Positions 915 to 35,900 are shown, numbered from the stretch's first letter. The stretch is 36,872 nucleotides of DNA from Gemmatimonadota bacterium (GCA_009838845.1 VXRD01000135.1:1-36872); one strand, 5' to 3'. The notes: generated from the letters alone by a model not told the origin. Made by a program: numbers and translations.

Positions 915-2948
915 TCAGGTGAACAGCTCCCGTCTCTGCTGGGAGATGCGGAACTTCAGCTTCTTGCTCGGTTTCAGCGACGGGAACGGACTGAAACGGA
1001 GCTTGTGCTTGTACTTCGCCGGCGACACCTCAATCGTGAAGTAGTGCGCCAGCATCAGCAAGTTGGCCGCCAGGTGCAGCTCCATCCACCGGGTGCCGAG
1101 ACACTTATGCGTGCCCAGCCCGTACGGGGCGTACCCGGGGCTTCGGTGTTCATGGCGCGACGGCAGGTAGCGGTCGATGTCGAACTTGTAGGGGTCGGGA
1201 AAGACCTCGCTCATGTAATGCGTGGCGGTCATGGCGATGTGGATCCGTTCCCCCATGGGCAGCTCGTAGTCCTCGACCACACACGTATTCATCACGTTTC
1301 GAATGGACATGGAGACGATCGGGTACATGCGCATGCACTCCATGAGGAAGCGGTGGGTAACGTCAATGTTGGCGGGGGTGAAATCCTCTCTCTCGGGGTC
1401 TCCCTTGGCGAACAGGGCATCTGCTTCGGCCTGGATTCTGGCGTAGAGGTCGGGCTGCGACGCCATGGCGTAGACTACGAGGCTAAACGTATCGCCGAGG
1501 TACACGCTGGCAATCAAGGCCGCGGAAAAGGAGAACAGCAGGTTGGACTCCGGGAGAAACTGCGGGTCGCTCGCGTGCAGGCTGAGGTAATCGTCCACCA
1601 GGTCCCGTGGGCTGTCCGCCCTTTGGGCGGGGGTATGGATGTCCTGGACCCGCTGCATCAGTGTGTCCAAGACTTTCGCCCGGCGTCTCATGCCCGGGGT
1701 GTTCAGCGTGAATCTGGGCAGGAGCTTGGCGACGTGCACGCTGAGGGCCCGTTCCTTGTACGCCATCAGGTCGTCCATGAGGTCCTGGGTATCGACGCCG
1801 ATGAATAGTGGGGAGAGCTGGGCGTTCACCATCTCCCGGCACATGGACGTGGCGCGGTATGAGTCCCCAACCGTCAAGCTCGCCATGTACTTGCGCCCCC
1901 GATTGTAGAGCTGGTCCAGCTGTCCTCCCAGCCTCGCGGCAGAATAGGCGGGCGATAGGGACTTGCGAAGCCGGAAGTGATCGGCTCCGTCTAGGGCGGG
2001 CAGGACGCCGGACGCGCCGTAGACCTTCTCGAAGTCGCTGAAGTAGTCCCTGGCTCTCAGGTACATGCGCCCGCGCTTGTGCACCCAGCGGTTTGTCTCG
2101 AGTCCGGCCAGGAAGATCATGGGCTTCGAGAAGGGAGGGCGGATCTGGAACACCGGACCGTACTCCTCCGCAAGGTTCCCGAAGAGCGCGTTCAGGTTGC
2201 CGTCTCGACTATGCGGGTTCAGCAGCAGCTTGGGCAGCGAAACCGTCGGAATCTTCCTGGCAAGGGCAGGACGTCGAAGGGCTGGGCCGGCGAGGTTCTG
2301 AGAGACCGCAGAGGCGAGGGAGCGGCCGATCAGGTCCATCTTGCAGATGAACTCGATGCGCTCCTCCGCCTCGTCGTCGAGCTGGAATATGAAACGAAAG
2401 ACGTCGCAGGTATTGACGAGGCAGATAATGATGACATCTCTCGGATCGGGAATCTCGTCGGTGAAGATGACCCTGCTGATCCGCGTTTTTATGAACTGGC
2501 CTGCAGTGCCCTCTTCCGACTTGCTGGACAGTTCTCCACGCCAGACGGTAGGAGCCAGTGTCCAGAATTCACCGTCGTGATATTCCAGGATCTTCAGGTC
2601 AACCAGGCGGTCCAGAACCGAATCAATGATCGATTCCGCACGGGGAGCGAGCCGTTCGATCCAGTACTGGGCGTTCCGTTGAACAGATTCGGCTGCGATT
2701 TCTTTCAGAATGGAGTCTAGAGCAGGTCTCCCCGTTTCTGTCTCGTCCACGAGTAACAGGGATTCCATGTCCGTGTCGATGCGCGATCTGAGTGAAAGCT
2801 CCGCGAGCACGGCACCGACCACGGCGCAGTTCAAATGCCAGCCGGGGACCTGGTGAAAGTAGCCAGTCTCCTCGTTGAGGAGCATCAGGATGAGCTCTTC
2901 GGTGAGACTTAGCGATTGGGTCGTCAAACCCTCGGTAGTATTAGCCAT
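915..2948 (-). CDS. GPP34 (GOLPH3-like) domain fused to cytochrome P450
   Basis: This 677-residue protein has two recognisable parts. Residues about 15-225 start with LTEELILMLLNEETG and look like the GPP34/GOLPH3 family, which in eukaryotes binds phosphatidylinositol-4-phosphate at the Golgi; its bacterial role is unclear. Residues about 235-677 are a cytochrome P450. They hold a C-helix HFRLRK stretch, an I-helix GDT at 485-487, an ExxR pair at E537/R540, and a heme loop PYGLGTHKCLG with the thiolate Cys616. The usual Phe and Arg of the heme loop are Tyr609 and His614. No ferredoxin or reductase domain is present, so external electron partners are needed. The ATG has an AAGGAGG site 8 bases upstream. 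The next gene is an SMT-type methyltransferase, which suggests oxidation and methylation of the same sterol or terpenoid. I cannot assign a CYP family; CYP51 is not clearly supported. Confidence 0.9.
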   Translation of the reverse strand: MANTTEGLTTQSLSLTEELILMLLNEETGYFHQVPGWHLNCAVVGAVLAELSLRSRIDTDMESLLLVDETETGRPALDSILKEIAAESVQRNAQYWIERLAPRAESIIDSVLDRLVDLKILEYHDGEFWTLAPTVWRGELSSKSEEGTAGQFIKTRISRVIFTDEIPDPRDVIIICLVNTCDVFRFIFQLDDEAEERIEFICKMDLIGRSLASAVSQNLAGPALRRPALARKIPTVSLPKLLLNPHSRDGNLNALFGNLAEEYGPVFQIRPPFSKPMIFLAGLETNRWVHKRGRMYLRARDYFSDFEKVYGASGVLPALDGADHFRLRKSLSPAYSAARLGGQLDQLYNRGRKYMASLTVGDSYRATSMCREMVNAQLSPLFIGVDTQDLMDDLMAYKERALSVHVAKLLPRFTLNTPGMRRRAKVLDTLMQRVQDIHTPAQRADSPRDLVDDYLSLHASDPQFLPESNLLFSFSAALIASVYLGDTFSLVVYAMASQPDLYARIQAEADALFAKGDPEREDFTPANIDVTHRFLMECMRMYPIVSMSIRNVMNTCVVEDYELPMGERIHIAMTATHYMSEVFPDPYKFDIDRYLPSRHEHRSPGYAPYGLGTHKCLGTRWMELHLAANLLMLAHYFTIEVSPAKYKHKLRFSPFPSLKPSKKLKFRISQQRRELFT

Positions 2949-19699: not shown

Positions 19700-20842
19700 T
19701 TAACGCCTTGTGAAGGCGAGTACGATGATCAGACCGATAAAGAGACCGGGAATAATAGAGAAACCCGCTTTCAGGCTGGCGGTGTCACCGATAACACCCA
19801 TGATCCAGGGGACGATGCCAAATCCGGCAATGCCAAAGCAGGCGAGTACGACAAAGAGCAGGGTGGTATCAAAGGACAGGTGTTCTGCGGCTTCGGCGAG
19901 TATGGTGGGCCAGAAGCAGGCGGTTGCAAATCCGGCGAGAAGGAGCAGGATGTAAAATCCGATCAGATTTTCGGAGAAGGGAATGCCGCTGCTGACGACG
20001 ACACCGAGGATAGCGGAACCGAGCATCAGGGTTTTCAGGCTGATCATCTGGGACAATTTTGCGGAAAGCAAGCGGCCCAGTGCCATTGTGATCGCAAAGA
20101 CGACGACTGCGATTGCTCCGGCGCGGGGCATGTCCCGGAGGTAGGTTTCCACATAGCTGCGGCTCCAGAATGTGAATGCTGCTTCGACACCTGCTCCTAA
20201 AAATATGGCGATGGCAAAGAGCCAAAATTTGGGTGTTTTGAGGATTTGTGCAATCAGGCGTTTGGATGATTGTTGATCTGCTACCGGTAGGGGAAAGCGC
20301 GATAGGTGGAACGAGATGCCCATGAAAAGTGCGCCCGCTGCAGCAATGCGAAATACGAGCCGCCAGGAATATCCGAGGGTCAAGAGTTCGCCAAAGAGGA
20401 GCGCGGAGACCATGACGCCGACGGGGTAAAAGGCGTTGGTGATGTTGAGGTATTTGCCCGAGTCTTTGGGGTGAATGTCGATGATCAGGGGATTGATGAG
20501 GGCTTCGGTGAATCCACCGCCAATGCCGGTGACCATGAGGGACAGGATGAGCATGGGATAGCTGTCGGCATAGCTGATCATGAGAAGGCCGATGGCGAGG
20601 AGATATTGCCCCCAGGTCACAAAATGTTTTTTGCCCCATTTGCGCGCGAGGATGCCTGACAGGATTAAGACGACGAGCAAAAGACATGTTCGCGCGGTTT
20701 CCAGGCCGCCGCTTTCAGAGAGGGAAATGGACAGGGCGCTGGATATTTCGGGCAGGCATATTGGGGTGACAACACCGCTGGTGGCAAACATCATAAACCC
20801 GCCCCAGCAGGCCAAATCGAGTCTGGTGAGTTCGGTTTTCAT
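19700..20842 (-). CDS. MFS transporter
   Basis: This 380-residue protein has about 12 hydrophobic helices and fits the major facilitator superfamily, fucose/sugar-permease-like branch. The conserved loop between helices 2 and 3 reads GILARKWGKKHFV. A GIGGGFTEALINP stretch lies in the helix 4-5 area. It follows a sulfatase gene on the same strand with a gap of only a few bases (start ATG 20842, or GTG 20848), so the pair is an operon. Because both sulfatases here appear cytosolic, this transporter may import their sulfated substrate or move the product. That is inference. Its stop codon begins at the base after the convergent sulfatase stop, so the two transcripts must overlap. Confidence 0.85.
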   Translation of the reverse strand: MKTELTRLDLACWGGFMMFATSGVVTPICLPEISSALSISLSESGGLETARTCLLLVVLILSGILARKWGKKHFVTWGQYLLAIGLLMISYADSYPMLILSLMVTGIGGGFTEALINPLIIDIHPKDSGKYLNITNAFYPVGVMVSALLFGELLTLGYSWRLVFRIAAAGALFMGISFHLSRFPLPVADQQSSKRLIAQILKTPKFWLFAIAIFLGAGVEAAFTFWSRSYVETYLRDMPRAGAIAVVVFAITMALGRLLSAKLSQMISLKTLMLGSAILGVVVSSGIPFSENLIGFYILLLLAGFATACFWPTILAEAAEHLSFDTTLLFVVLACFGIAGFGIVPWIMGVIGDTASLKAGFSIIPGLFIGLIIVLAFTRR

Positions 20843-20850
20843 AGGCACCG

Positions 20851-22338
20851 CTATTCCAGATAATCCATTTCGGGGCGCAAGTCCCAGCGGATCGTATCTG
20901 CGGGTTTGGTATGGCGTGCCCAGGCCGTGAGGATGCGGGAGTCTCTGTTTCGGGCGGCGATTTGAGATGCGATGGCGTCGGGATCCCAGCCGTCGAGGAT
21001 ACGGGCGGTGAAATTTTTGATCAGGCTTTGACAGGACGAATCGTTAGCGCGGTCGTGCAATTCGTTAGGGTCTTCTTTCAGATTGAAGAGTTGACAGGGC
21101 TGGTTGTGGTAATAATTGAATTTCCATTCGTCCTGCCGAATCATGCGCTGGTACACGCCTTCGGCGGAGAAGGGTCCGCCACCGCCTGCTCTGTCCTGAC
21201 AAAATTCGGAGAAGGCGAGGTTGTCCCAGGATGTGTTTTCGCCGCGCATAAGGGGCAGGAGTGAACGCCCGCGAGAGTGGGGGAGTTCGGGACATTGCAG
21301 GGCGTCGATCATGGTGGCGTTGAGGTCGATAGAAGAGATGACGTTGTCAAAGCGCTTGCCTTCGGGCAGGTGACCGGGCCAGGAGAGGATGGCGGGTACT
21401 TTGGCGGAATGCTCGTAGAAGGTTTGTTTCCACCATAGGCCGTGTTCGCCGGCTTGTTCACCGTGGTCTGACATGTAAATGATGAGGGTGTTGTCGATCA
21501 AATCGTTTTGGCGGAGGGTTGTGAGGATCTGTCCGATCATGTAATCCATACGGTCAACAAGTGCCCAGTATGCGGTGCGTGCGCGGTGGATTTCGGCTTC
21601 TGTGACGGTTGTAATACCGCAGCGTTCGCGCCAGGATTTGATGTGGGGATGCAGGTCGTCTGAGAAGGGGACAGAGATAGTGGGGGGTGGTACGTGGCCA
21701 TCGTAACGTTCGTAGTCGGCGCGGCGCGCGACAAAGGGCTGGTGGGGGAGCATAAATCCAACGGTTAGAGAGAAGGGTTCTGCGGGTTGTCCGGCGCGTT
21801 TTTTTACGCCCAGGCGATCGAGATATGCAACGGTTGCTGCGGTTACGTCTTCGTCGTGTACCTGATACGCGCTTTGTCCAATGCCCGATTTCGTCAGGCT
21901 GACGCGGGCAGGACCTGCTGTGCCCGAGAGCATTCCGTGGTTGACGCCGCCGCCACCGGGATGATTAGGCCCGTGATCGCCTACGAGGCGCCGAGCATAT
22001 CCATGTAGCTGATCCGGTCCATTGGAATGCATGCGTCCGACGAGCACGGGGTCGTAACCGCCCGCGCCCATTGCATGGGCAAATGTGGGAATGCTCGAGT
22101 TGAGTATGTGCCCGTTTGTCCACACTTCGTTTTCAAAGGGATAGCGCCCCGATAGCATGGACATGCGCGAAGGTACGCATATTGGCGAGGGGCAATAGCA
22201 GTTTTCAAATACAACGCCATTTGCCGCGAGGCTGTCGAGGTTGGGGGTTTGAACGATTTTGTCGCCGTAACAGCCCGTCACATAAGGATCGTGCTGGTCG
22301 GAGTGGATGTAGAGCAAGTTGGGTTTCGGATGTGCCAT
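20851..22338 (-). CDS. Sulfatase (alkaline-phosphatase superfamily), cytosolic type, Arg variant
   Basis: This is a 495-residue formylglycine-dependent sulfatase. SDQH lies at 13-16, the CxPSR motif is CVPSR with Cys54, and MSDHGEQAGEHG forms the C-terminal metal site. The usual lysine signature G-K-x-H is GRMH here, so the sulfate-contacting Lys is replaced by Arg; this may mark a substrate subfamily. There is no signal peptide. The ATG has an AGGA element 7 bases upstream. The MFS gene follows immediately. The first sulfatase of the window is only distantly similar, so the two probably act on different bonds. A phosphonate or phosphodiester hydrolase cannot be ruled out. Confidence 0.9.
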   Translation of the reverse strand: MAHPKPNLLYIHSDQHDPYVTGCYGDKIVQTPNLDSLAANGVVFENCYCPSPICVPSRMSMLSGRYPFENEVWTNGHILNSSIPTFAHAMGAGGYDPVLVGRMHSNGPDQLHGYARRLVGDHGPNHPGGGGVNHGMLSGTAGPARVSLTKSGIGQSAYQVHDEDVTAATVAYLDRLGVKKRAGQPAEPFSLTVGFMLPHQPFVARRADYERYDGHVPPPTISVPFSDDLHPHIKSWRERCGITTVTEAEIHRARTAYWALVDRMDYMIGQILTTLRQNDLIDNTLIIYMSDHGEQAGEHGLWWKQTFYEHSAKVPAILSWPGHLPEGKRFDNVISSIDLNATMIDALQCPELPHSRGRSLLPLMRGENTSWDNLAFSEFCQDRAGGGGPFSAEGVYQRMIRQDEWKFNYYHNQPCQLFNLKEDPNELHDRANDSSCQSLIKNFTARILDGWDPDAIASQIAARNRDSRILTAWARHTKPADTIRWDLRPEMDYLE

Positions 22339-22391: not shown

Positions 22392-23549
22392 TTATTGACT
22401 ATCCGAGACGGGGTAAAGGGTTAGTCGCGCTCTCTTCCCCGCGCCTTCATCGGAAACGATTAGCGTGCCGTCCGCGGCGAAGGTAATACCTTCAACCTGA
22501 CGATGCCACTGGGCGGGAAACTCTCTGACTGCAACAACCTGGCCACCCGGCGTGATCTCCGCGATAGCCCCCTGACGCGCAGCTACGATAAAGTAATTTC
22601 CCGACATCGGGTGTCGCTCGATTCCCGAAGGCTGGAATTTTTTTCCTTTGATGTGTTGAGAGAATTCATCGACAGATATTGCGATATGTGCATCTTTTTT
22701 TAGCTGTTTCTCGTCAATTGACCAGTGATATACTGCCAACTTTCCCTCCATGTCTGCGCTGCGAGCGTCCTTGCACATCAGTAAGAGTGCCCGCTGGCTC
22801 TCGTCGTATGCCAGGCTCTCGATTTCGCAGTCTCTGCCGACGCCAGTCGTATAGACATTGAAGAGAACGGACTCGCCAGCAGTTCCCTCACGACACGCGT
22901 ATAGTCGCCCTGAACTCGTGACCAGATAGATCTGGTCGTCAATTGTTGCAATGCCCTCAAAATCACTGGCAACCGGGTTCTTCATATCCGATAATTGGAA
23001 TGATTTTACGATTGACCCTTTCTGATAATCGATCTCGAAAATGACCCCTCTTTCATCATTGTGCGCCAGAAGTCGGTCGTCTCTGGTCATTGCCAAACCA
23101 GAGATCTCTTCAAGATACGTGGGGAGCTTCCAGTGCGTCGCGGTCTCTTCGTTTAGTGTATAGCTCTCAAGAGATATTTTCCTTTGTAATACAGCCATTG
23201 TGTCCGCCAGAGGGCGAACGCTCGAAGTATCGTCTGACGGATTTCTACTAAAATCTGAGGATGAATCCTCTTCATAGTCTAATACAGCCATTGTGTCCGC
23301 CAAAGGGGAGACGATAGAAGTGTCTGAAGCGGTCTCTTCGTTTGGTGTATAGCTTTCAGGAGATATTAATACCGCCATCGTGTCCGCCAAAGGAAGGACG
23401 GTAGAAGTGTCTAAAATAGAAGTATCTGTATCTGCGTTTGACGAATTTCCACTAAAATCTGAGGATGGATCATAGCCCATCGACAACAGGTAGAGAAGAA
23501 TGCCAAAACCAAGGAAGCCCAGCAGAAATTTATCTGTGTGATTCTTCAT
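22392..23549 (-). CDS. Membrane-anchored SdiA-regulated-type beta-propeller protein
   Basis: This 385-residue protein starts with a membrane anchor or uncleaved signal (KFLLGFLGFGILLYLLSMGY). A repetitive acidic linker of about 115 residues follows, with three copies of PLADTMAVL. The C-terminal part (about 140-385) has beta-propeller repeats of the SdiA-regulated / esterase-like-phytase type, with LEEISGLAMT, ASDFEGIATIDDQIYLVTSSG, QPSGIERHP and RQVEGITF. Family function is uncertain; extracytoplasmic phosphoesterase or ligand-binding roles have been proposed. I used the ATG at 23549; a TTG at 23555 is possible. A TATAAT lies a few bases upstream of the ATG. It is the last gene of the kinase-like/barrel block, 71 bases after the DUF4956 gene. 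Confidence 0.75.
   Translation of the reverse strand: MKNHTDKFLLGFLGFGILLYLLSMGYDPSSDFSGNSSNADTDTSILDTSTVLPLADTMAVLISPESYTPNEETASDTSIVSPLADTMAVLDYEEDSSSDFSRNPSDDTSSVRPLADTMAVLQRKISLESYTLNEETATHWKLPTYLEEISGLAMTRDDRLLAHNDERGVIFEIDYQKGSIVKSFQLSDMKNPVASDFEGIATIDDQIYLVTSSGRLYACREGTAGESVLFNVYTTGVGRDCEIESLAYDESQRALLLMCKDARSADMEGKLAVYHWSIDEKQLKKDAHIAISVDEFSQHIKGKKFQPSGIERHPMSGNYFIVAARQGAIAEITPGGQVVAVREFPAQWHRQVEGITFAADGTLIVSDEGAGKRARLTLYPVSDSQ
23186..23475 (-). repeat. Composite internal tandem repeats encoding PLADTMAVL units
   Basis: Three near-identical DNA units encoding PLADTMAVL begin near 23188, 23281 and 23368, so the periods are 93 and 87 bases. Two companion segments are also duplicated: one coding ESYTxNEETA (near 23146 and 23333) and one coding SDFSxN (near 23240 and 23446). 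The high DNA identity points to recent duplication. Confidence 0.85.
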
Positions 23550-23620
23550 GTGCAATTATACCGTTATGAGTATGCCTGCCAGACCTTTCCCGGTGACAGG
23601 GAGGCTTTAAGATACCAATT

Positions 23621-24532
23621 TTAAACTTTAGTCAGCGTTGCGTTTGTGATACTTTTTTTGCTTTTTTCAATATCCTGGATGAGGGAAGGCAGATCGACGG
23701 ATTGTTTTAACGAAACATCATACACAACGATGGCCGTTCCATCTTCTTTCTCGATCACATCTGCTACTTGCCACTGTTTGGTCCCGGATTTCAGGATTTG
23801 AGCTGTTGCTTTTTGCGCTGTTTCGACCTTCGTTGTGTGTACTTCAATCCGGGCATCATAGGAATTCCCGGTGGCCTTTGTCCCAGAGGTCTGGACCGAG
23901 TGATCAGGTGAAACAATTCTCCAGCCGGATAGTACTGGTGGCTGCGCGCCATAATTGATTTTCCACACGCCGAGTGTTATGGTGACGAAAGCCAACGATG
24001 CGAGGTAGGCCACAGTCGTAAGCTGGGTGCCAGCCGCCAGCCCTATCCCGATGACCATAAACATGTACACACCCTCTATGGTCGATTTGAGTGAGAGCCG
24101 AAAGGTGACAGCGGCCACGATACCCGCCAGACTGAACGCAAGGGCAAGACTACCCTTCACCAAAAAAACAACCAGTGAGATGGCGACAGGTATCACGAGC
24201 AGAGTTTGTACAAAGGCTTGACTGTATTTCTTGGGCGGATGCGTCCAGGCATATACCCAGGTAATAGGGAGGGTAACCCCGAAGGCCAGTACCAAAGCGA
24301 CTACAACTGGAATCGTGTGTTCCGGATCGGCGAGCCGATTTACCCCTTCCTGGATGTTTCCAAGCGGAATGGGCGGATCGGCCCCGGAGTCAAGGGATGA
24401 TCCTACAAAGATGCGTTCTCGCTCCTGGGCGACGTAATAGAGAATTTCGGGGAATATGTGAAAAATCGCGTTGAGAATCAAAAGCCACGTGATATAGTAA
24501 ATGGCGAGACGTATGATGATGTTGTTGAGCAT
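23621..24532 (-). CDS. DUF4956 family membrane protein
   Basis: This 303-residue inner-membrane protein has about five hydrophobic helices (near 5-28, 73-96, 107-125, 130-150 and 160-187). The DUF4956 hallmark SLALAFSLAGIVAAVTFRLSLK is present. A soluble C-terminal domain (about 215-303) resembles a small ferredoxin-like fold. The ATG has a strong AAAGGAGG site 5 bases upstream, and the gene starts 18 bases after the barrel-fusion gene, so the two are in one operon. Family function is unknown. From memory, DUF4956 genes elsewhere often sit next to CotH-like kinase and VTC (polyphosphate polymerase) domain genes. That would fit the kinase-like neighbours here. Confidence 0.85.
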   Translation of the reverse strand: MLNNIIIRLAIYYITWLLILNAIFHIFPEILYYVAQERERIFVGSSLDSGADPPIPLGNIQEGVNRLADPEHTIPVVVALVLAFGVTLPITWVYAWTHPPKKYSQAFVQTLLVIPVAISLVVFLVKGSLALAFSLAGIVAAVTFRLSLKSTIEGVYMFMVIGIGLAAGTQLTTVAYLASLAFVTITLGVWKINYGAQPPVLSGWRIVSPDHSVQTSGTKATGNSYDARIEVHTTKVETAQKATAQILKSGTKQWQVADVIEKEDGTAIVVYDVSLKQSVDLPSLIQDIEKSKKSITNATLTKV

Positions 24533-24550
24533 CGCATCCTCCTTTATTAG

Positions 24551-27268
24551 CTAAAACATAAAACCAGCGCGCAGATATACGCCCGTCAGGTCATCGCCTT
24601 TTACGATTGCCGCGCTAAAGGTCTGCTGGCGCTTGAGAAAAGACAGCCAGATTCCACCTCCGATACTGGTGTGCCATTTATCGGCATTGTCCGGATCTTT
24701 GTCATAAATTACCCGGCCGGCATCAGCTATACCGAACAATCCGAATTCTCCCGATACCAGCAGCTTGATTTTTGTCAGGACCAGTCGCAGTTCGGAATTT
24801 CCATACAGCGCAGTCTCTCCAGCGAACCTGTTTTTCCGGAAACCGCGCAAATTGCCGCTGGATATGCCACTACCGACAAAACCGGATCCACCCAGAAAGG
24901 CACTTTCGTGGAAGGGAAAGGTTCCCCATACCTTCTTGCCTCCTGCTCTTAAGGCAAGGGTGGGGGTAGTCGGAATAGGGGCTGTCAGGTAAGTACTGGC
25001 TGCCCCATCTATACTGCCAAAGGTCGATTCTACATCCCAGACGCCCGGATAGATGTCTCCGGCAACCCTGACCCTGATCCCCTGAGTGGGATACCCCAAA
25101 CTGTTGCGCGTGTCGTACGCGACTTCACCCAGTGCGCCTACCTGACCGAAGGAATCTGTACCGTAAAGTGGTTGATCGAGCGAACCGATATATTTTTCCC
25201 GATTGGAACTGAGTGGTGTGTTTGAATACTTGATAATCGGCCCAAAGTCAATGGTTAATTTCGAGCGGAGCGATCCCATACCAACATGAGGCATATCTCC
25301 TTTATGATCTCCCGCTCGAAACTCGAGGGCAGGTGCGAAAACGAAATGTCTTTGTTCCACCTTATAGAAGGAAGATGGACGCAGAATTTCCGTTTTGTTA
25401 CCGAATCCATTGAACCTGATTGTCTGGAACCCGGAGTACTTTAAGTAGATTCTCGCGTCGAAGTCGCGCATGAATTCGCGAAAGTTTCCGGTATAGGAGG
25501 CAAAAGGCTTGATACCCTTGAGATCATTGTCTTTCGCCAGCCCGATCTTGAAAAAATGTTGCGAAGAGAAAGGGTCTTTTCGATACCCGAAATGCTGACG
25601 ATGGTAGGTCGCCCCCAAGAATACATCCATATCCGGGTTTACCCTGATAATCGGAGCAGTAGCAGCCTGCCCGCCCCAGTCCAGTGCATACCTTGCGCGG
25701 AGAAGCCGGGCGGGAGGTCGCTTGTAGGGTCGTTCGTCGATTTTCGCGCCCTTGCCTTTGGCGAACTGATTTTTTCCACGATAATCATAAAACCGGGTTT
25801 TTGATGCACCAGACTGGGATGAGTTTGTGAGCGCGTCATCCCCACCGCCACCATCAATGCGAACGACAATCTGTCCCTTTGTCCCCGATATTTCCGCGTG
25901 GTCATCTCCGCCCCGGAGATATATTCGGACTTCCCGGGTTTCCTGAGGGTGGAAAGTTCTTTGGAAATAGGGTGTCTTCCTTTCTCCTCCAGTACCTTCT
26001 ATCAGACCGATACGGACTGCGAGATCACCGTTCGGCAGGTGTTCACACTGGGCGTATTCGTCCTTATCGGTTGCCTGGATTTCGACCTGGCGGGTAATCA
26101 ATTCATAGTATCTGCTGGCAAATTCAGGCAATGCGTCTCGCCTCGATTTGAGGGCTTGGGTAAGCGTTTCCCCAATCATTTTGTAATACGGTGGTGGAAG
26201 TCTCCGCACGGCATTCTCGATAACCTGGTCGGGCAGGTCCTTTCGAAACGCTGTTACTACCGAATCCCACGCGGTCTTATTGAGTTCGGACAGAAACTCG
26301 CGGTCCATCTCCCAACCCGTGGTCGATAGACCCACCAGGCTTGGATATTTGTCTCCGAACGTGATTTGTCTGGGGAGCCTTTTGCGCGCCATTGCCATGG
26401 CAAACCCCTTGAAGCCGATAAAAGCCTGGTCGCGATCTTCGGGTATTGTAAGCCATGTATAACAATCGCCATCGGGGAATTGCGCCCATCTCCACTGGCC
26501 GTAATGCCGGTCCTTGTCGCCGATGAAAAGATCCATCAGTTTCGCCTTTAGATAGGCGCGGGCATCGACGCGGTTGCAAGGACTTTCTTCAAGGTGTTCC
26601 CACAGCCTCTCCGTTCCGCTGATCCTCCGGGAACCCGCAAAGCCGGGCGTATCGTCCGGCCCTTCAGACGGGTGTTCTTGTAGCGTTCCTATAAGGCCGG
26701 CAAACTCTTCGCGGTACTCTCCCAGCCCTGGATCATCCGGAATGACTACGAGTGTGTGCTTGGAATGGAGGATACCAGTGGCTTCCATCAGCGGATCAGC
26801 CACGAGTGCCCCTGTTGGTAGAAGCGCGCTGATCAAGTCCTGGAGGACGTCATCTACGATCGTATCCTTGAGTTCGTCCCATATTCTTTTGGTGGGATCT
26901 TTATCCAGGGAGCGGACCGTATAGCGGCGGCCGTCTTCCCCTGTAAAGTGAAGCGAGATAGACTGCCCGAATCCGCCGGTGCGAAGCGGTGTCAAGCCAC
27001 CTCCTACGCTGTTGAGGTCGAGGACTGAAACCTCGATAGGAGTGGTCCAGAGGTCCCGGTTATTGCTGCCGTAGAACCAGCGTTTGAACCCGCTGGCCCG
27101 GAATCTTTCTCCTGGAATCACCATGTGGGTCTTAGCACCTTGCGGAGGGATAGAGCGGTGAATCCTGTATCCTGGTGGCGGTGAATCCTCCTCAGATGTG
27201 GATTCTGCCGGAAAAGAAAAAGCGAACACCAGCAAGAGTAAAATGGCGTTCCATCTGGAAAATATCAT
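24551..27268 (-). CDS. Exported kinase-like domain fused to outer-membrane beta-barrel
   Basis: This 905-residue protein begins with a signal peptide (about 1-22). Residues about 110-300 resemble an atypical kinase fold. YTVRSLDKDP (116-125) has the layout of a nucleotide-lysine strand, followed by a helix (VDDVLQDLISALLPTGAL). GDKDRHYGQWRW (250-261) is catalytic-loop-like, with D253. IPEDRDQAF (275-283) is DFG-like, with D278 and D280. A middle beta-rich region (about 430-540) holds GGDDH and GGGGDD turns. The last 350 residues or so are a BamA/TamA-type barrel with LRGFRKNRF and a terminal Phe. An AAAGGA element precedes the ATG. Related proteins elsewhere are usually annotated only as BamA/TamA-family barrels. 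Kinase activity is inferred and untested; the usual catalytic-loop Asn is Gln258. Confidence 0.75.
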   Translation of the reverse strand: MIFSRWNAILLLLVFAFSFPAESTSEEDSPPPGYRIHRSIPPQGAKTHMVIPGERFRASGFKRWFYGSNNRDLWTTPIEVSVLDLNSVGGGLTPLRTGGFGQSISLHFTGEDGRRYTVRSLDKDPTKRIWDELKDTIVDDVLQDLISALLPTGALVADPLMEATGILHSKHTLVVIPDDPGLGEYREEFAGLIGTLQEHPSEGPDDTPGFAGSRRISGTERLWEHLEESPCNRVDARAYLKAKLMDLFIGDKDRHYGQWRWAQFPDGDCYTWLTIPEDRDQAFIGFKGFAMAMARKRLPRQITFGDKYPSLVGLSTTGWEMDREFLSELNKTAWDSVVTAFRKDLPDQVIENAVRRLPPPYYKMIGETLTQALKSRRDALPEFASRYYELITRQVEIQATDKDEYAQCEHLPNGDLAVRIGLIEGTGGERKTPYFQRTFHPQETREVRIYLRGGDDHAEISGTKGQIVVRIDGGGGDDALTNSSQSGASKTRFYDYRGKNQFAKGKGAKIDERPYKRPPARLLRARYALDWGGQAATAPIIRVNPDMDVFLGATYHRQHFGYRKDPFSSQHFFKIGLAKDNDLKGIKPFASYTGNFREFMRDFDARIYLKYSGFQTIRFNGFGNKTEILRPSSFYKVEQRHFVFAPALEFRAGDHKGDMPHVGMGSLRSKLTIDFGPIIKYSNTPLSSNREKYIGSLDQPLYGTDSFGQVGALGEVAYDTRNSLGYPTQGIRVRVAGDIYPGVWDVESTFGSIDGAASTYLTAPIPTTPTLALRAGGKKVWGTFPFHESAFLGGSGFVGSGISSGNLRGFRKNRFAGETALYGNSELRLVLTKIKLLVSGEFGLFGIADAGRVIYDKDPDNADKWHTSIGGGIWLSFLKRQQTFSAAIVKGDDLTGVYLRAGFMF

Positions 27269-27323
27269 GTTTGTCCTTTCGTTTCAAGGTGATTTGTATA
27301 ACCTGCAGTTGGGCAGATATGCA

Positions 27324-29564
27324 TCAAAACGCAAATCCGACTGAGGTATAAATCCGGATATCCTTTTCTTCTGTACTCACAATATCAACGCGAATGGGAC
27401 CTAAAAATGTTGTGCTGATATAACCACCAATACCAAAACCGTGGATACGGGTATTGGGCTGATCCGGATTGGAAGACATATTGTACAGGCCGCCCTGATA
27501 GAAAATTCCAACAGCACTGAGCGGTATGGATCCCCAAAATTTCATGTGGCTCCAAATAGAAATGCCCGCCGATACGAACCTGAAAGCCCGCAGTTTGTCG
27601 CGTTTGAGACCGACAACGCGCAATGCTGTGTTACTAAAGTGTCCTGCACCACCTAATGCGAAGTGTTCATAAATCGGTGCAGGCTGTGTCATATAGCCTC
27701 CGTGAGACCAGAGGCTCACACTCAATTGCGGATGGGGGCTGGTGAAGTACGCGAGTTGCGTTTGCACCTGCTTATGTGAAAATGTCCGATGAACCCATTT
27801 TGCTTGCGTTTGAAAATAGATGCCGTGTCTTGTCAAAAACGCATCGTCTCGGGTGTCAATACCTGCAGATAGCCACAAGGCGGGCAGATCTTTAGACGCA
27901 TTGCCTATTGAACTGTCCGCATCGCGAATGCGGACATGCTCGACTTGATACCCCACTTTGAAACCTCCCCAACTGTGGAACAAAACCTGCATGCCCAATC
28001 GCGCGCGAAAACGCTTCTCGTTATATGTGTCCTGGTGTTGCCCATTTTGAAAATACAACCGATCTTGATTCCAACCCTGAATCTCCCCGAAGAAACCCAG
28101 GCGCCTGGATGAGCGAAAAATTAAATCCATTTCAGCAAGCTTCAAATTGCCCAACAGGCCGCGAAAATAAAACTCTGCTACGGGGCCATAAGCATTTTGA
28201 TGTGCAAACTCGGTCAGTGCCGCAACCCCAAAATCATTGTCGTAATGAAGTCCTATTTTCAACTCACTGGGGGGGTTTTCAAGTACCTGAAAAACCAGTT
28301 CGGTATAGTCTTCATGGTAGATAACCTCGTAATCTACCGTTTGAAATAATCCGGTCGCATAGAATCGGCCAGATTCGTTTTCCAGTTTCCGAAACGATAT
28401 CGGCTTATTGACAAACTTTTCCAACCGCGATGTAAATACCTCTTGTGAATAGCGCTCTAAACCCTCAATCCGAACCCGGTCAATTACAATATCCGATGGT
28501 ATATCTACCCAGGTTCTGAAATCAAAATCATCTGGCAATATCGACGGTCTCGATTTTTCGACACGCTTTGAAATTCCGAGCGTTTGCAGAGCCTTCCAGA
28601 TCGCATCCAGATGTTTTTCGGCTTCTTTTTCACCAATTGGGATCAAGGTATATGACAGATTAAAATCGCCTCCGTCAAATTTTTTTAAATCGGGCATGAT
28701 CAGCACATGGGCGAGTTTTCGATTTGCGATTTTTTTTTCTTCAATTCGAAAACTAACAGCCTGATCAATGACGTCGATAATATCTTCAACTTCGTGCTTT
28801 TGAGTGCGCAAAGGTGTGGCACAATCCACGGCAATAACTAAATCAGCCCCGGCGTCTAATGCGACATCCACAGGCAAGTTATTGACAATGCCGCCATCTA
28901 CGAGATGGGTTTGTTCTGTACTTATCGGCGCAAACACCCCGGGAACAGAAATACTCGCTCTGATTGCCGTGCCGAGCGAGCCATTTTTAAGCACGACCTG
29001 TTCGCCAGATAAAATATCTGTTGCTATTGCGCGGAAAGGCGTTGGCAGCCGATCAAAATCGTTTCGCGCCCGATAAATTGCGCCAAGGGTCAATTGATTG
29101 AGAAAATGCTGAATTTTTTGTCCGGCAAAAACCCCATAAGGTAATTTCAGGTTCAACTTATCGAGGCGCAATGCAAGCATCTGGCGATCAGCTATTGGTT
29201 TGCGATTCAAATTCGACAGACGACGGTTGGGGTGATTATTGGTTATTTCCCACCAATCTGTTCCTACAATAATGCGTTCGACATTATCAACAGAATATCC
29301 GGCAGCGTACAGTCCTCCCACCAGAGCGCCATAACTTACGCCCACGATCAAATCAATGGGTATGCCTTCGCGCTCGAGCACGCGCAACACGCCGATATGT
29401 GCCCCGCCACGCGCGCCTCCCCCACTGAGCACCAGTGCGACTCGGGGCTTCTGTTTTGCAAAAGCAGGAAGCGTGATAGACAGGGCAAAACCGAAACACA
29501 ACAAAAAAACAAATAGGCTTTGAACTATGCCGCATTTGATTGCGTATAACCTTTTGCCTGTCAT
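27324..29564 (-). CDS. Patatin-like phospholipase with POTRA and outer-membrane barrel (type Vd autotransporter-like)
   Basis: This 746-residue protein has a signal peptide ending AFA (about residue 36). The patatin domain holds the oxyanion loop GGGARG (48-53). The nucleophile elbow is GVSYG with Ser77, and the catalytic Asp is D223 in DGG, forming the Ser-Asp dyad. A POTRA-like region lies near 350-430 (IDRVRIEGLERYSQEVF), then a barrel of about 300 residues ending in VGFAF. This is the PlpD/FplA architecture, in which the lipase is delivered to the surface. I chose the ATG at 29564 because it starts the signal peptide; earlier codons overlap the preceding gene by 53 bases. It lies 28 bases after the kinase-like gene. 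The Omp85 barrel encoded in the same block may help to insert it. Confidence 0.88.
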   Translation of the reverse strand: MTGKRLYAIKCGIVQSLFVFLLCFGFALSITLPAFAKQKPRVALVLSGGGARGGAHIGVLRVLEREGIPIDLIVGVSYGALVGGLYAAGYSVDNVERIIVGTDWWEITNNHPNRRLSNLNRKPIADRQMLALRLDKLNLKLPYGVFAGQKIQHFLNQLTLGAIYRARNDFDRLPTPFRAIATDILSGEQVVLKNGSLGTAIRASISVPGVFAPISTEQTHLVDGGIVNNLPVDVALDAGADLVIAVDCATPLRTQKHEVEDIIDVIDQAVSFRIEEKKIANRKLAHVLIMPDLKKFDGGDFNLSYTLIPIGEKEAEKHLDAIWKALQTLGISKRVEKSRPSILPDDFDFRTWVDIPSDIVIDRVRIEGLERYSQEVFTSRLEKFVNKPISFRKLENESGRFYATGLFQTVDYEVIYHEDYTELVFQVLENPPSELKIGLHYDNDFGVAALTEFAHQNAYGPVAEFYFRGLLGNLKLAEMDLIFRSSRRLGFFGEIQGWNQDRLYFQNGQHQDTYNEKRFRARLGMQVLFHSWGGFKVGYQVEHVRIRDADSSIGNASKDLPALWLSAGIDTRDDAFLTRHGIYFQTQAKWVHRTFSHKQVQTQLAYFTSPHPQLSVSLWSHGGYMTQPAPIYEHFALGGAGHFSNTALRVVGLKRDKLRAFRFVSAGISIWSHMKFWGSIPLSAVGIFYQGGLYNMSSNPDQPNTRIHGFGIGGYISTTFLGPIRVDIVSTEEKDIRIYTSVGFAF

Positions 29565-29592
29565 CTGATTCCCGACTTTGAAAGAATTGAAA

Positions 29593-31272
29593 CTACTCCT
29601 GTCGATCAACCCGTACAATCTGATATAGCCCGACATTCCATACAAAAAAATAAACCCGAACGTATTTATCTGCCCATCCAGACCTCACGGTCCGAATCTC
29701 TATCCCGTAATATTGTCCATCCGGCAAGTCGCGTGGTATGGGTATGTGTCCTGACGTATCGAGTTGACGCACAGCACCCTGCGCCTTTCCATCGCGACTC
29801 AAAAATTGATAAAAATACCGGGTCTCTGCTTCAGTAGCCAGATTTCCCACAATCGCCAGATCTTCAAAATGCAATCCTCGTCTGTCAATCCAAAAGCGAT
29901 CCAGCGGATTTATACGTCGAAACCAGTAATCGCCCACCTTATCCCGGCGTGCAATCAAAAGTCGAATGAGTCTCTCTTCAGCCTTCTTGTCGCTCAAATG
30001 CCCTGTCTTCACAATAGCTGCCAAATCCGCATCGCTAAACGCCATTGCGATTTTTGCCCCCCAGTACCCATCGCGATTTGTACACCGCTGAAAAGCCGGA
30101 TTGGGATAATTGGTAACCCACCGCCTGGGCGAAAATACATCGCTCTCCAAATAACCAATTGATGGAAAATGTATGGGTTTTGCATCTTCCCACGCCTTTC
30201 GATACAGCCCCAGCCCCAAAACAGATGGGACAATATAGCGAAAATCGACAAAATACTCATTTCCTGACTTAGGCGTGTGAGGCCGCACCGAACGACTACC
30301 CAAAGTCGCGTCCATATCGATCAAATAGTGTTTGATATATTGACGTCCCTGTTCATCAGTCACAAACATATTCAGGGTGTTGGCCGCACGTCGATCTACA
30401 TCATTGATCCACGAAGAGATCGCTCGCAACCCCCGTAACTCCCTTCGATGCTGGTGTTTCACGCGATCATTGGGGTCGTCTTTCCGCCGACTGTGAAAAT
30501 CAAAAACACCGAGCGGAATACCCGTTAATCTCTTGCTTGCCAGGCATCGGATATACCCGTTGGCTTGTTTCTCAATAGAAGACAGTACATTTTGCAAGTC
30601 TGCATCTGTCATGTCCTTGTGTCTTCCCTCATCATCAGATACCTCAGCCTCAGGGCCAATGGTAAGCCATTCTGCGCGAAAAAAAACAACGGAATTTTGC
30701 GGCACATGATAGCCCGCAGCATACAGAATTTTTGTCGATACAACCTCGGCAGTTGTCGCCAACTCCTCATAACCTTTTGCGTCAAACTTTAAAAAATAAA
30801 TATCTCCTTTTGCGTCCCGAATTGTAAGCTCAGGCACCTGGCCCTCTAATTTTCCCGATATAATCTCCCATGAACCGCTCGTATCTGGATGCGCGTGCCC
30901 CGGTCCTTTGGCCAACGCCGCAGCATCCATCCGCACAAGAAAATGCCGATTCGTGTACCAAGATGAATTGGGTACTTCATCCAGCACATTGACATTATCT
31001 GCCTGACGAGATGGCGCAATATTCAGAATATTCCCAACCCGCCGCGCACTCCGTCCCAAATCCAGTTTCTTAGTCATTGGATAAACAAAAGAGTGATCGA
31101 CCATGTCCCATATCAGATTCCTTTTAATTACTTTGGGTTGAACAATACTGCGATTGTCGGGATCAAACCACTTGATTGGCGCAGTCGATAAATGGTGGTC
31201 GATCGCTTCAGCCTCGACGGCAACACAGGCCATAAGCACCCATACCCACAATTTATTTAAATCCTTTTTCAT
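29593..31272 (-). CDS. Exported protein with atypical-kinase-like (HipA/CotH/Fam20-type) motifs
   Basis: This 559-residue protein has a signal peptide (about 1-23, ending AEA). It shows the order expected of an atypical kinase fold. A lysine strand IYFLKFDAKG (K162) precedes a helix carrying E176 in TTAEVVSTKIL. A catalytic-loop-like WINDVDRRAANTL has D293 and N298 five apart. A DFG-like YLIDMDATLG has D319 and D321. No outer-membrane barrel is present, so it is probably periplasmic or a surface lipid-associated protein. The ATG at 31272 has an AGGGAAG element about 10 bases upstream. It follows the Omp85-type barrel gene by 23 bases and precedes the patatin-barrel gene by 28. I do not recognise a named family. 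If active, it would need nucleotide outside the cytoplasm, as proposed for CotH. Confidence 0.7.
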   Translation of the reverse strand: MKKDLNKLWVWVLMACVAVEAEAIDHHLSTAPIKWFDPDNRSIVQPKVIKRNLIWDMVDHSFVYPMTKKLDLGRSARRVGNILNIAPSRQADNVNVLDEVPNSSWYTNRHFLVRMDAAALAKGPGHAHPDTSGSWEIISGKLEGQVPELTIRDAKGDIYFLKFDAKGYEELATTAEVVSTKILYAAGYHVPQNSVVFFRAEWLTIGPEAEVSDDEGRHKDMTDADLQNVLSSIEKQANGYIRCLASKRLTGIPLGVFDFHSRRKDDPNDRVKHQHRRELRGLRAISSWINDVDRRAANTLNMFVTDEQGRQYIKHYLIDMDATLGSRSVRPHTPKSGNEYFVDFRYIVPSVLGLGLYRKAWEDAKPIHFPSIGYLESDVFSPRRWVTNYPNPAFQRCTNRDGYWGAKIAMAFSDADLAAIVKTGHLSDKKAEERLIRLLIARRDKVGDYWFRRINPLDRFWIDRRGLHFEDLAIVGNLATEAETRYFYQFLSRDGKAQGAVRQLDTSGHIPIPRDLPDGQYYGIEIRTVRSGWADKYVRVYFFVWNVGLYQIVRVDRQE

Positions 31273-31295
31273 CAAGAATGTCTTCCCTGCGTCTT

Positions 31296-32735
31296 CTAAA
31301 ATGCCTGGCTCATCGTAAATCCGATGAGGAAACGATTGGCAGTACTATGCCCAATTTTGATTTTGCCGAGCAAACCGACCTCCGTGCGAAATGCAATGCC
31401 GCCACCCCACGAAGAATGGAACCCTCCCCACCTCAAATCTCCAAAATGGTCAAAAATTTGCGCTTCATCCCAAAACAAAAACACATTCGAATAATCCCAT
31501 ATTGGATATCGATACTCCACATTAAATTGCAATGCTCCCTGTCCGCGAAAATAACCGCGCGTGTATCCGCGTGCCGATTCATTACCGCCCAATTGAATCA
31601 ACTCGGTATAAGGAACAAATCCATCCCCCACTGACCGCACTTTATCCACCCGTGCGTGCAGAACCAGAATGCGGTTCTTCCAGAACAGCGTGATATAACG
31701 GGCAGCTTCGGCGCGTATCTTGTAGAACGCAATGCGATCAGGGCCTGTCACCCAGTCGCCTTCTAAAGTGATAAATCCACCGCGTTCGGGATATCCAATA
31801 TCTCGCGCAAAATAAAACTGATCTCCAAATTGTGTAACTATCCTGCCTGGAAAACGATAATTGGATGGATGAGAAAGCTGGCGAACTGGTTTTTTATAAT
31901 CGCGGTCATCATATATTACCCGAAGCCCAACGCGATAAAATTTGAATTTTGTGCCCAACCCCTTAACCAGACGCGCCTGTGGTGATGATCCCGGGTCGGA
32001 AAGTGGTTGCAATCCACCCAATACAGGCATAAAATCGCGCTGCGAAAATCCAATCCTGCCCACCATTTTAAACTGCGGCACTATAGACGCGGTCTCAGCC
32101 GTTTTCAAACGCCATTCAACAGAGGTTTCAACATCAACTTTTTTGAGTTCAAAAAGCCTCGACTCGTCGTTATCTATTGCGCCGTTTATATTGGCATTTC
32201 TATTTTTTGTTTGCAAATATCCACCCTGAATTTTCCAAATAAGCCCCGTGTCCAATAGATTGGGGTCAATATACAGACCTTCGCAAAATTGCCCCTGCTC
32301 GCCCGAATAGATATAGTGTGCAGTCAATGCGTTTTTGCGCCCCAGGATATTGGTATGGAAAAGACGCGCTCCAATCCCTGTGCCCGTTTCTCCTCCCAAT
32401 TGCCCGTGCGGAAAAAGACCAAATGTACCCGATTTATTGGTGAAAAATTTATAGTAACGAATCCACAGTTTTGCGTACTCTACTTGAATAGCGAATTTCT
32501 CCAAAGGATAGACCATCGTCAGCAAGATATACCGGGGGGATCGCAAGAGATATTTCACTTTTGAAGTTTTTGTAACATAGACATCCGTACTGTCGGTAAC
32601 TCTGGCTTGCGATATATCGTAGGGATCGTGCTTGTAAAGACTGTCAGTGTACGTCACCGAAGTTGAGGTATGTGCGTCTTTCGGGGGGCAAAACAAAAAG
32701 ACACATAAAGGAAGAGAAAGAAGAAATGAGCGCAT
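31296..32735 (-). CDS. Omp85/BamA-TamA-type outer-membrane beta-barrel protein
   Basis: This 479-residue protein starts with a signal peptide (SFLLSLPLCVFLF). After a short N-terminal segment with no clear POTRA domains, the remainder is a transmembrane barrel. It contains the Omp85 signature region GGNESARGYTRGYFRGQGA, where RGY corresponds to the conserved L6-loop motif. It ends in SQAF, with the terminal Phe typical of a barrel insertion signal. Typical BamA is about 800 residues, so this is a POTRA-poor form. It is the first gene of the six-gene minus-strand block. I use the ATG at 32735, directly after a TTG. It could insert or secrete the other barrel proteins of the block, or be a surface antigen; this is inference. 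Confidence 0.85.
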   Translation of the reverse strand: MRSFLLSLPLCVFLFCPPKDAHTSTSVTYTDSLYKHDPYDISQARVTDSTDVYVTKTSKVKYLLRSPRYILLTMVYPLEKFAIQVEYAKLWIRYYKFFTNKSGTFGLFPHGQLGGETGTGIGARLFHTNILGRKNALTAHYIYSGEQGQFCEGLYIDPNLLDTGLIWKIQGGYLQTKNRNANINGAIDNDESRLFELKKVDVETSVEWRLKTAETASIVPQFKMVGRIGFSQRDFMPVLGGLQPLSDPGSSPQARLVKGLGTKFKFYRVGLRVIYDDRDYKKPVRQLSHPSNYRFPGRIVTQFGDQFYFARDIGYPERGGFITLEGDWVTGPDRIAFYKIRAEAARYITLFWKNRILVLHARVDKVRSVGDGFVPYTELIQLGGNESARGYTRGYFRGQGALQFNVEYRYPIWDYSNVFLFWDEAQIFDHFGDLRWGGFHSSWGGGIAFRTEVGLLGKIKIGHSTANRFLIGFTMSQAF

Positions 32736-32738
32736 CAA

Positions 32739-32942
32739 CCGATTCTCAAAAAATTATCAACTTGTGTTATATAACTCAAATTATGTGATATAAATTAGAA
32801 ATACTATACAAAAATACAGAGATCAACCCCCTTGTTGGTGACCGCAGGTACCCGCTCAGGCATCCTCCTTTGCATCAAACTGCCAGCAATTTCAGACTAC
32901 GACTTTGCCAAATAGCGCGCAAATCATAGCGCATATTCTTTA
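32739..32942 (-). promoter_or_regulatory. AT-rich leader with orphan Shine-Dalgarno and 19-codon reading frame
   Basis: This 204-base gap separates the WD40 gene from the barrel block and probably holds the block's promoter. The half next to the barrel gene (32739-32820) is strongly AT-rich. A moderate pair, TTGATC (rc of 32821-32826) and TATTTC (rc of 32798-32803), has 17-base spacing. At 32860-32871 lies AAAGGAGGATGC, whose ATG (32863) opens a 19-codon frame ending at 32804. The ribosome site abuts that ATG with no spacer, so normal initiation is doubtful. The same AAGGAGGATGC string precedes the starts of two other exported or membrane genes here. Confidence 0.35.
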
Positions 32943-35900
32943 TCATCCTTCTTTGCCAAAGGCGTTGGCAAAGATCAGAAAATCGCTCATACCAATGCTG
33001 CCATCCCCATCCAGATCATACCGCGCGTCATATCCTGCATCACCTTGAGTTAGTCCGAAATAATCTACAAATAGCAAAAGGTCGGAAATACCAACAATGC
33101 CATCGCCATCGAAATCGGGCGATGGCGTCTGGGATTGTATTGTGATATACGGCGACATATCCCACAGCAGAACCGTACCGTCTAAACTCCCACTGGCAAG
33201 CAGGCTGCCATCCCGACTAAAAGCGACGCTCCAGACTTCCGATAGATGCCCTTCAAGCGTCTGCTCAGGTCGTCCTGTAATGGCGTCCCATAGACGAATG
33301 GTGCGGTCCAAACTCCCGCTGGCGAGTATGCTGTCATCCGGGCTGAACGCAATGCTCCGGACATCATCCGTATGCCCCTGGAGCGTCTGCTTGAGTTGTC
33401 CGGTTGTAACATTCCACAGGCGGATGATGCCATCTGCATCCCCACTGGCGAGTGTCTTCCCATCTGAGCTGAATGCAACGCTCCAGACTGCCGACGTATG
33501 CCCTTCGAACGCGTTTAAGGGCTGTTCGCTGGTAGCATCCCACAGACGAATGATGCCGTCTGTACTCCCACTTGCCAGTGTCCCATCTGGACTGAATGCG
33601 ACACTCCAGACATCCGCTTCAAGCCCTGTGATCCTCTTTAATAATTTTCCCGTGGTAGCGTCTCGAAAATCAATAGAACCACGAACATGGTCTCCACCTT
33701 TTCCAGCCGCGAGCATACTGCCATCCCTTGAGAACGCGACCGAAAAAATAAAAGGATCATATTTATAGGGGTCACTACCGCCGCCAAGGCCAAAGCCGAT
33801 GGTGATGCCCCCAATTCTAATGCCGGTGAGGCCGCCGCTGGTGTCACCAAAGCCGATGCCACCAATGCCGATTCCGATGCCAGAACCAGAGCCTCCATAG
33901 GATCTATCGGGCAGGCTCATCTTGTACTGTCCCGTGCCCCCATCCCACAGATGGATTGTTTTGCCAGCCACACTTGCGAGCGTTCTGCCATCCCTTGAGA
34001 ACGCGACGCTGCGGACTGCAGATGCATGCCCTGGTAGCCTCTTCTCGTGCTGTGCTGTATCCGCATCCCACAGATCAATTGAACCAGCCCAATTGCCACT
34101 GACGAGGGTGCCATCCTGGCTGAATGCGACGCTTCGGCCCAACCATTTATGCCCTGTGATCGTGTTCAATGGTCGTCCTGTAGCGCCCCATAGAATGAGT
34201 TCTTCTCCGCCTCCACTGGCGAATCGTCCATCCTGGCTGAACGCGACCTTTCGCACAGGCCACACATGCCCTGTGAGCCTCTGCTTGTGTTGCCCTGTGT
34301 CTGCATCCCATAAATCGATATTGCCTCCCCCAAAAAACTTTCCGCCGCCACTGATCAGCGTGTTGCCATCTGGACTAAACGCGATACTATAATAGTAGGT
34401 AGGCACTGGAGGAAAATCGGACTTTTCTAAACGTTGCTCTGTGCCTGTGGTGGCATCCCACAAATAGAGGTCGCCCTGGCGCATTCCCGGGAGAGTCTGA
34501 CTGGCACCGGCGAGTGTGCTACCATCCGGGCTGAATGCGACACTCCAGATTCCGCCTGCGCTTGGCCCCACCGGTTCGATCTTTTTCCTGTGCTGTCCTG
34601 TGGTCGCATCCCACAGATGGATGATACCACTAAGAAAAGATTTCCCAGCACTTGCGAGCGTGTTGCCATCCGGGCTGAACGCGATACTATTGACTATCTC
34701 CGCATTTCCAAACACATCCAGCGCAGTGAGCACTCTCAGGTGCTGTCCTGTGGTGGCGTCCCACAGGTGTATTGTACCGCCCTGACTGCCGCTGGCAAGT
34801 GTGTTGCCATTCTGGCTGAAGGCGACGCTACGGACCGCGGACCGATGCCCCGTGAGCGTATTCAAGTGCTGTCCAGTGGTTGCATCCCATAGATGGATTG
34901 TACCGTCCCAACCGCCACCAGCGAGTGTGCTGCCATCCGGGTTGAACGCAACGCTACGTACAGCAGACGTATGCTCCGTGAGGAAGTCGATCTCGGCACC
35001 TGTGAGTGCATTATAGACCCAAACACCGATGCCACTGCCGACCGCCAACCGCGTGCCATCATCCGAATACGCGATATCCAATATCCAACCTTTGCCCAGG
35101 CGTGCGGTTACGCCGTCGGGTAAATGCCATGTCCAATAATCACCGTCCCTGCTGCGTGGCACGTCAGGCGTTCCAGCAGTAAATATCACCAACTCACTTC
35201 CAGCAGATACCCTGATAAGGGTGTATGTTCCCGGACCGGGGCTAAGTGTAAGCGTCCGTTGTGCGCGGCCATTGGCATCGGTTGTTGCCTTTTCAACTGT
35301 GAACTGACCACTGAGCTTCCCCTCACCGGCGGTGACTGTAAAGGTGACTTGAGCACCTGGTAAAGGGTTCCCGTACTGATCTTGTACTTCAACGATCAGG
35401 GGGTTGGGCAACGCGGCACCGGGTGTGCCTTGCTGGTCATTGCCGGATATTATCGCCAACCCCGCAGGCTGTGGCTGAACCGCCTCAGCCACGTCCCATA
35501 GTTTGATCGTCTCATCCTCTGCCCCAGAAGCGACTGTCGTCCCATCGGATGAGAACGCCACCGAAAGAACCTCCTCTGTATGGCCTTCAAGAGTGGCGAT
35601 ATTTGTGCCCGTCGCCACGTCCCACAGCTTGACCTTTCCATCCTCTGACCCGGAAACGATGGTTGCAGCATCGGGAGAAAATCCCACAGAAGTTACGTTA
35701 TCCTTATGCCCTTCAAAGGTAACGGTATTTGTGCGCGTTACCACGTCCCACAGCTTGACGGTCTTATCATTTGATCCAGAAGCGAGTAGCGTGCCATCGC
35801 GCGAGAACACTACTGAAGTGACATTTCCCGTATGCCCTTTAAGTGTGATCGCGTTTCCCGTCGCCACGTCCCATAGCTTGATTGTGTCATCAAAAAACTC

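Follow-up and report, generated by a model that had tools for sequence, protein, structure and literature searches.

Two separable gene modules pairing predicted kinase-like domains with Omp85-type barrels at one locus of a Gemmatimonadota bacterium

Six neighbouring genes on the minus strand of a Gemmatimonadota contig raise the question of whether they constitute a single envelope system, as the initial annotation proposed, and which of them belong together if they do not. The stretch of DNA analyzed (hereafter the window; 36,872 nucleotides, GCA_009838845.1 VXRD01000135.1:1-36872) corresponds to contig C135 in an assembly of 5.75 Mb; among named genomes, Latescibacterota MAGs are its closest relatives. 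An ORF check recovered all six reading frames in the places where they had been annotated (Table 1), separated by gaps of about 20, 28, 55, 18 and 71 bases if conserved ATG starts are taken (the claim had been about 18-71 bases); the proposed identities as Omp85 barrel, patatin-POTRA-barrel protein, DUF4956 protein and beta-propeller were matched by Pfam/NCBIfam models. The patatin gene is listed with a TTG start at 29645, and the starts in relatives point to ATG at 29564 as the probable one; the propeller gene probably starts with ATG at 23549, and its relatives begin MKNH. Five of the products had been described as exported or anchored and the sixth as polytopic, which agrees with hydrophobic N-terminal segments on the Omp85, patatin, kinase-barrel and propeller proteins and with a polytopic DUF4956 protein. 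It does not extend fully to the exported kinase-like protein (here termed kin), the leader of which scored below the cut-off, yet is signal-sequence-like and is represented by lipoprotein-like leaders in several relatives. A promoter and terminator scan of the locus gave counts barely above those of shuffled sequences. The analysis confirms the six genes but divides them into two modules rather than one system.

Table 1. Positions of the six genes and of the module A cassette in the window
Feature	Position	Strand	Matches and residues
Omp85-type barrel, module A partner of kin	31296..32735	-	PF01103 2.2e-11; no N-terminal domain recognised
Exported kinase-like protein kin, 560 aa, module A	29593..31275	-	motif residues K163, D294, N299, D320
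PlpD-type patatin-POTRA-Omp85 protein	27324..29564	-	PF01734 7.5e-34; POTRA by BamA model; PlpD 9e-62
Kinase-Omp85 fusion, 905 aa, module B core	24551..27268	-	PF01103 7.7e-6; NCBIfam Omp85_fam 7e-20
DUF4956 inner-membrane protein (predicted), 303 aa, module B core	23621..24532	-	PF16316 1e-11
Membrane-anchored beta-propeller, module B core	22392..23549	-	SdiA-regulated / Phytase-like / Mala_s_1 matches
Cassette carrying module A	29586..32941		homology breaks vs sister genomes

Module A, the Omp85 barrel gene with kin, is a 3.4-kb cassette between a WD40 gene and the patatin gene. Homology to sister genomes breaks off where the WD40 gene stops (positions 32941-32947) and resumes at 29585, just past the kin stop codon; both breakpoints were seen in G006 and G010, and the patatin-side breakpoint also in G001, G002, G004 and G009. 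The flanking DNA of the sister genomes is continuous, or restarts at the patatin gene, without the cassette. Six genomes (G001, G002, G004, G005, G006, G009) carry the patatin, kinase-Omp85, DUF4956, propeller and sulfatase genes at this locus without omp85 and kin, and a profile search found kin nowhere else in these genomes; the six-gene arrangement is present in the window's genome, in G007, and in G003 as far as its contig reaches. The omp85-kin pair behaves as a unit, whether by gain or by loss. The view of the six genes as one unit is not supported, with the pair at the locus in three genomes of the genus, missing from it in at least six others and found at one of 43 related loci; a single six-gene unit was rejected on account of the empty sites in sister genomes.

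Module B is a three-gene core (kinase-Omp85, DUF4956, propeller), accompanied by the patatin gene in some lineages. Matches to the kinase-Omp85 protein were found in 28 of the 64 genomes of the phylum (E<=0.001, including six weak barrel-only matches), and 51 kinase-Omp85 loci were found in the genome collection. Counted over the 43 of these that have 3.5 kb or more of DNA downstream, from MAGs labelled as six phyla (organism labels as deposited, which GTDB may not share), the neighbours are DUF4956 (41/43, adjacent), the propeller (36/43), patatin (10/43), metallophosphoesterase (7/43) and kin with omp85 (1/43). Since positive genomes hold only about one to three DUF4956 genes, the linkage of kinase-Omp85 to DUF4956 is far beyond chance, with closely related genomes not independent of each other. 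Co-occurrence of the families, which the initial annotation had suggested checking for all six, is seen for these three core genes, and the full set is not conserved. The linkage has also outlasted rearrangement, as one clade (support 100/100) with the inverted order kinase-Omp85 > < metallophosphoesterase < propeller < DUF4956 keeps the three genes together. The patatin gene adjoins module B in two lineages and is a lineage-specific partner.

On Hymenobacter and Persicobacter plasmids, a phosphoesterase region precedes the kinase-Omp85 part within a single ORF; this Bacteroidota region shares 26-30% identity (tblastn) with the stand-alone metallophosphoesterase, and a Pfam search of the Hymenobacter fusion protein did not score the phosphoesterase domain. 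In Persicobacter a propeller gene lies immediately upstream of this ORF. In Parabacteroides only kinase-Omp85 is present, and in H. monticola only its kinase part; in the neighbourhood of two Hymenobacter relatives there are genes for undecaprenyl-diphosphate phosphatase or PAP2. DUF4956 was absent from the Bacteroidota loci examined. No TLC-type transporter was found in the 51 kinase-Omp85 loci, and no nucleotide transporter is linked to the modules within the window.

The kinase-Omp85 protein consists of a signal peptide, a kinase-like domain (approximately residues 30-400), a short beta/GD-rich linker and a C-terminal Omp85 barrel. Its Pfam/NCBIfam model matches comprise no named kinase family, and PDB sequence searches with either kinase-like protein or its profile gave no usable match. 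An AF2 model of residues 26-530, computed from a 51-sequence alignment (pLDDT 84.3, pTM 0.88), was searched against the PDB with Foldseek, and matched H. pylori CtkA (6e-6), a Golgi casein kinase (Fam20; 5e-4), PI4KIIalpha (5e-4) and B. cereus CotH (6e-4), followed by slightly weaker matches to HipA and DrFam20C1; the structures of HipA, CotH and Fam20, with which a comparison had been suggested, are all among these matches. For matches with E<=0.001 the TM-scores reach modest values, about 0.24-0.32 by query length and 0.28-0.52 by target, as would be expected for distant folds; the predicted structure assigns the domain to the kinase-like fold of HipA, CtkA, Fam20, CotH and PI4KII. The candidate active-site residues are R119, E162, D251, D253, Q258, D278 and D280, and the four aspartates are invariant in 51 members. 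The catalytic loop (IGDKDRHYGQW) is similar to that of a HipA-like protein of the same genome (IGNTDRHHENW). Because arginine R119 replaces the usual beta-3 lysine and glutamine Q258 the metal-binding asparagine, the protein may be a pseudokinase; among the Bacteroidota members, some have lost further residues.

For kin, a Pfam search gave no match, and an AF2 model from a two-sequence alignment reached a pLDDT of 30. The Lys / Asp-x4-Asn / Asp series (residues in Table 1) is kept in most of 19 divergent members and lost in L265, and the kin and kinase-Omp85 profiles align collinearly over 264 columns (E 0.0066; reversed control, 0.1), a likeness of the two families that is suggestive only. 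The description of both proteins as kinase-like therefore stands by predicted fold for the kinase-barrel, and for kin goes no further than motifs and weak profile similarity. With the kin profile, relatives were found in another ten genomes, all from outside the phylum, and none in the viral contigs or plasmids searched. Where flanking DNA is available, kin mostly has an Omp85 barrel gene as its neighbour, other phyla included (exceptions include G008, G014 and G259). TLC-type transporters were predicted near kin at nine loci (L021, L023-L026, L258, L259, L262, L267), some of which bear HEAT repeats and have a cNMP-binding gene after them, and at two loci a PF00149 phosphoesterase lies between kin and the transporter; no DUF4956 was found in kin loci outside the genus.

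The DUF4956 protein has a polytopic core and a soluble C-terminal domain of about 90 residues, and the alignment shows that the module B form differs from the VTC-linked form by an extra N-terminal hydrophobic pair. A DUF4956 profile gave no match in the PDB, and the similarity to MgtC in Pfam is an E of 9.4 in one of 26 members; the MgtC-like description of DUF4956 rests on PMC12345266, in which a relative is described as MgtC-like with an ACT domain. VTC was found in nine of 64 genomes, which strongly overlap with those whose DUF4956 does not adjoin kinase-Omp85, and no VTC polymerase was found in the window's genome. CotH, VTC and DUF4956 occur together in published loci (PMC7112168), and the association of CotH with DUF4956 was also found in the phylum of the window's genome. 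In S. intermedius, deletion of the membrane gene of MgtC/ACT type (which appears to be the cluster's DUF4956 gene) and deletion of the CotH gene changed Pel levels and aggregation (PMC12345266), which shows that such kinase/DUF4956 pairs can affect the envelope, mechanism aside.

The patatin protein, of which PlpD is the closest characterised homologue, contains patatin, POTRA and Omp85 barrel, i.e. all parts that define the PlpD family. The patatin domain of PlpD has been shown to be periplasmic, with an effect on phospholipid levels (PMC11116518), and the earlier reading as a surface lipase is therefore unlikely.

The explanation that we favor, with a probability of about one half, is that both modules serve phosphotransfer in the periplasm and are tethered to the outer membrane, i.e. 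two separate modules with one theme. The N-terminal domains of Omp85 proteins face the periplasm. By analogy with these, and with the periplasmic patatin domain of PlpD (PMC11116518), the kinase-like domain is placed in the periplasm, where it would be held by its barrel in the outer membrane; DUF4956 would sit in the inner membrane, and the propeller, which carries a hydrophobic membrane anchor, would be tethered there on the periplasmic side. The kinase-like domain might then phosphorylate a protein, glycan or lipid of the periplasm or outer membrane, the metallophosphoesterase of related module B loci might reverse this reaction, and DUF4956 might supply or regulate the phosphoryl donor. 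Module A would represent another pair of kinase and barrel, which a few genomes carry as an insertion upstream of module B; for the relatives of module A, the TLC-type nucleotide transporters may play the donor role. On this common reading, each kinase would have a partner in the inner membrane by which its phosphoryl donor is provided or sensed. We infer the donor role of DUF4956 from an apparent swap of partners, module A relatives having TLC without DUF4956, and module B loci DUF4956 without TLC; counting against it, no transport activity is, to our knowledge, known for DUF4956. That the modules amount to a categorically new envelope phosphorylation system, with Omp85-tethered periplasmic kinases opposed by phosphoesterases and the donor provided via DUF4956 (module B) or TLC (module A), is tentative and rather doubtful.

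The kinase-like domains might instead have no catalytic role and serve as pseudokinase or substrate-binding elements in Omp85 machines specialised for assembly or export, with DUF4956 and the propeller as assembly or sensing partners. The exchanges at R119 and Q258 are in line with this, as are degenerate members in both families (L265 for kin; L133, L135 and L136 for kinase-Omp85) and the usual role of Omp85 proteins in assembling or translocating proteins (PMC4104836). The invariance of D251, D253, D278 and D280 among the 51 closer members, the retention of the K-D-N-D set in most kin members, and the recurrent association with phosphoesterases and, for kin, with nucleotide transporters render this explanation unlikely. 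Remodelling of lipids, in which a PI4KII-like lipid kinase would act with the PlpD-type phospholipase on outer-membrane lipids, appears quite improbable: PI4KIIalpha is among the top fold matches, but CtkA, Fam20, CotH and HipA match equally well or better, and 33 of the 43 loci are without the patatin gene that adjoins module B in two lineages. The effect of PlpD on phospholipid levels (PMC11116518) and the undecaprenyl-diphosphate phosphatase or PAP2 genes of the two Hymenobacter relatives are points in its favor. Least probable is that the six genes function as one system, as first proposed; their common strand, short gaps and joint presence in the window's genome, in G007 and, within its contig, in G003 are outweighed by the empty sites, by the single related locus with the cassette and by the occurrence of kin and omp85 elsewhere with unrelated neighbours.

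Among known systems, the CotH-VTC-DUF4956 set (Pel-linked loci, streptococci and clostridia; also Latescibacterota) likewise ties an extracytoplasmic kinase-like gene to DUF4956 with a soluble C-terminal domain, whereas here one protein combines the kinase-like domain with an outer-membrane barrel, VTC is not among the linked genes, a propeller is added, and relatives have a phosphoesterase. The 'Metallo' subfamily of Omp85 proteins (Heinz and Lithgow 2014, PMC4104836; the word 'kinase' is absent from its main text) carries an N-terminal PF00149 enzyme on the barrel, as in the Hymenobacter and Persicobacter relatives; in contrast, the window protein has the Omp85 barrel without PF00149, and its kinase-like domain directly precedes the barrel. 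The patatin gene matches PlpD (type Vd, patatin-POTRA-Omp85), for which linkage to kinase-Omp85 was not found in the literature searched. From the HipA, CtkA, Fam20, CotH and PI4KII proteins, the fold of which it is predicted to share over residues 26-530, the kinase-Omp85 protein differs by its C-terminal barrel and by matching no kinase family. The nucleotide transporters of the NTT-HEAT and cNBD types that free-living bacteria possess (PMC5381601) involve the same TLC, HEAT_2 and cNMP-binding genes as adjoin kin relatives; no link to a kinase/Omp85 pair was found in the text examined, and these transporters are absent from the window.

The literature searched yielded neither an Omp85 barrel that carries a kinase-like domain nor, in line with the initial annotation, a system of such composition. 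A conserved gene set of kinase-barrel and inner-membrane protein in poorly studied bacteria suggests an undescribed envelope phosphorylation system. The periplasm is generally regarded as lacking ATP, so a conserved outer-membrane kinase-like enzyme that has a conserved partner in the inner membrane, and in relatives also a phosphatase to match, would be unexpected; if true, such a system would help to explain the ATP source of extracytoplasmic kinases in Gram-negative bacteria. DUF4956, a family of unknown function, gains a second independent tie to an extracytoplasmic kinase-like protein, and uncharacterised bacterial TLC-type transporters are tied to a kinase/Omp85 pair; both associations offer concrete, testable functions for orphan families. 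The same-strand run of genes continues past 22392, with a sulfatase gene 53 bases on and then an MFS gene; the sulfatase beside the propeller is conserved within the genus only.

Module B (the genes for the kinase-Omp85 fusion, DUF4956 and the membrane-anchored beta-propeller) is followed immediately downstream by sulfatase and MFS transporter genes, and within the genus it keeps its sulfatase neighbor. Elsewhere in the window, a single ORF combines GPP34 (Golgi phosphoprotein 3-like) and cytochrome-P450 domains.

Window features outside the six-gene block
Feature	Position	Strand	Remark
Sulfatase and MFS transporter	19700-22338	-	same strand as module B, immediately downstream
GPP34-cytochrome P450 fusion ORF	915-2948	-	domain content

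The kinase-Omp85 gene is repeated or in tandem inside one locus at L113, L110, L152, L164 and L165, and in several rearranged loci (L120, 2993-5641; L147; L183) an exported 880-aa protein, for which Pfam gives no match, adjoins the DUF4956 or kinase-Omp85 gene. The relative of the exported kinase-like protein at L265 (7130-9091) has lost the kinase motif residues and is a possible pseudokinase.

Clustered CotH, HlyD-like, VTC and DUF4956 genes occur in the Latescibacterota loci L093, L094 and L098; one study (PMC12345266) reports that it encountered the three-gene synteny solely at Pel loci. Hymenobacter relatives of the kinase domain lie close to genes for an undecaprenyl-diphosphate phosphatase (L133) or a PAP2 phosphatase (L136), with RND efflux genes also nearby.
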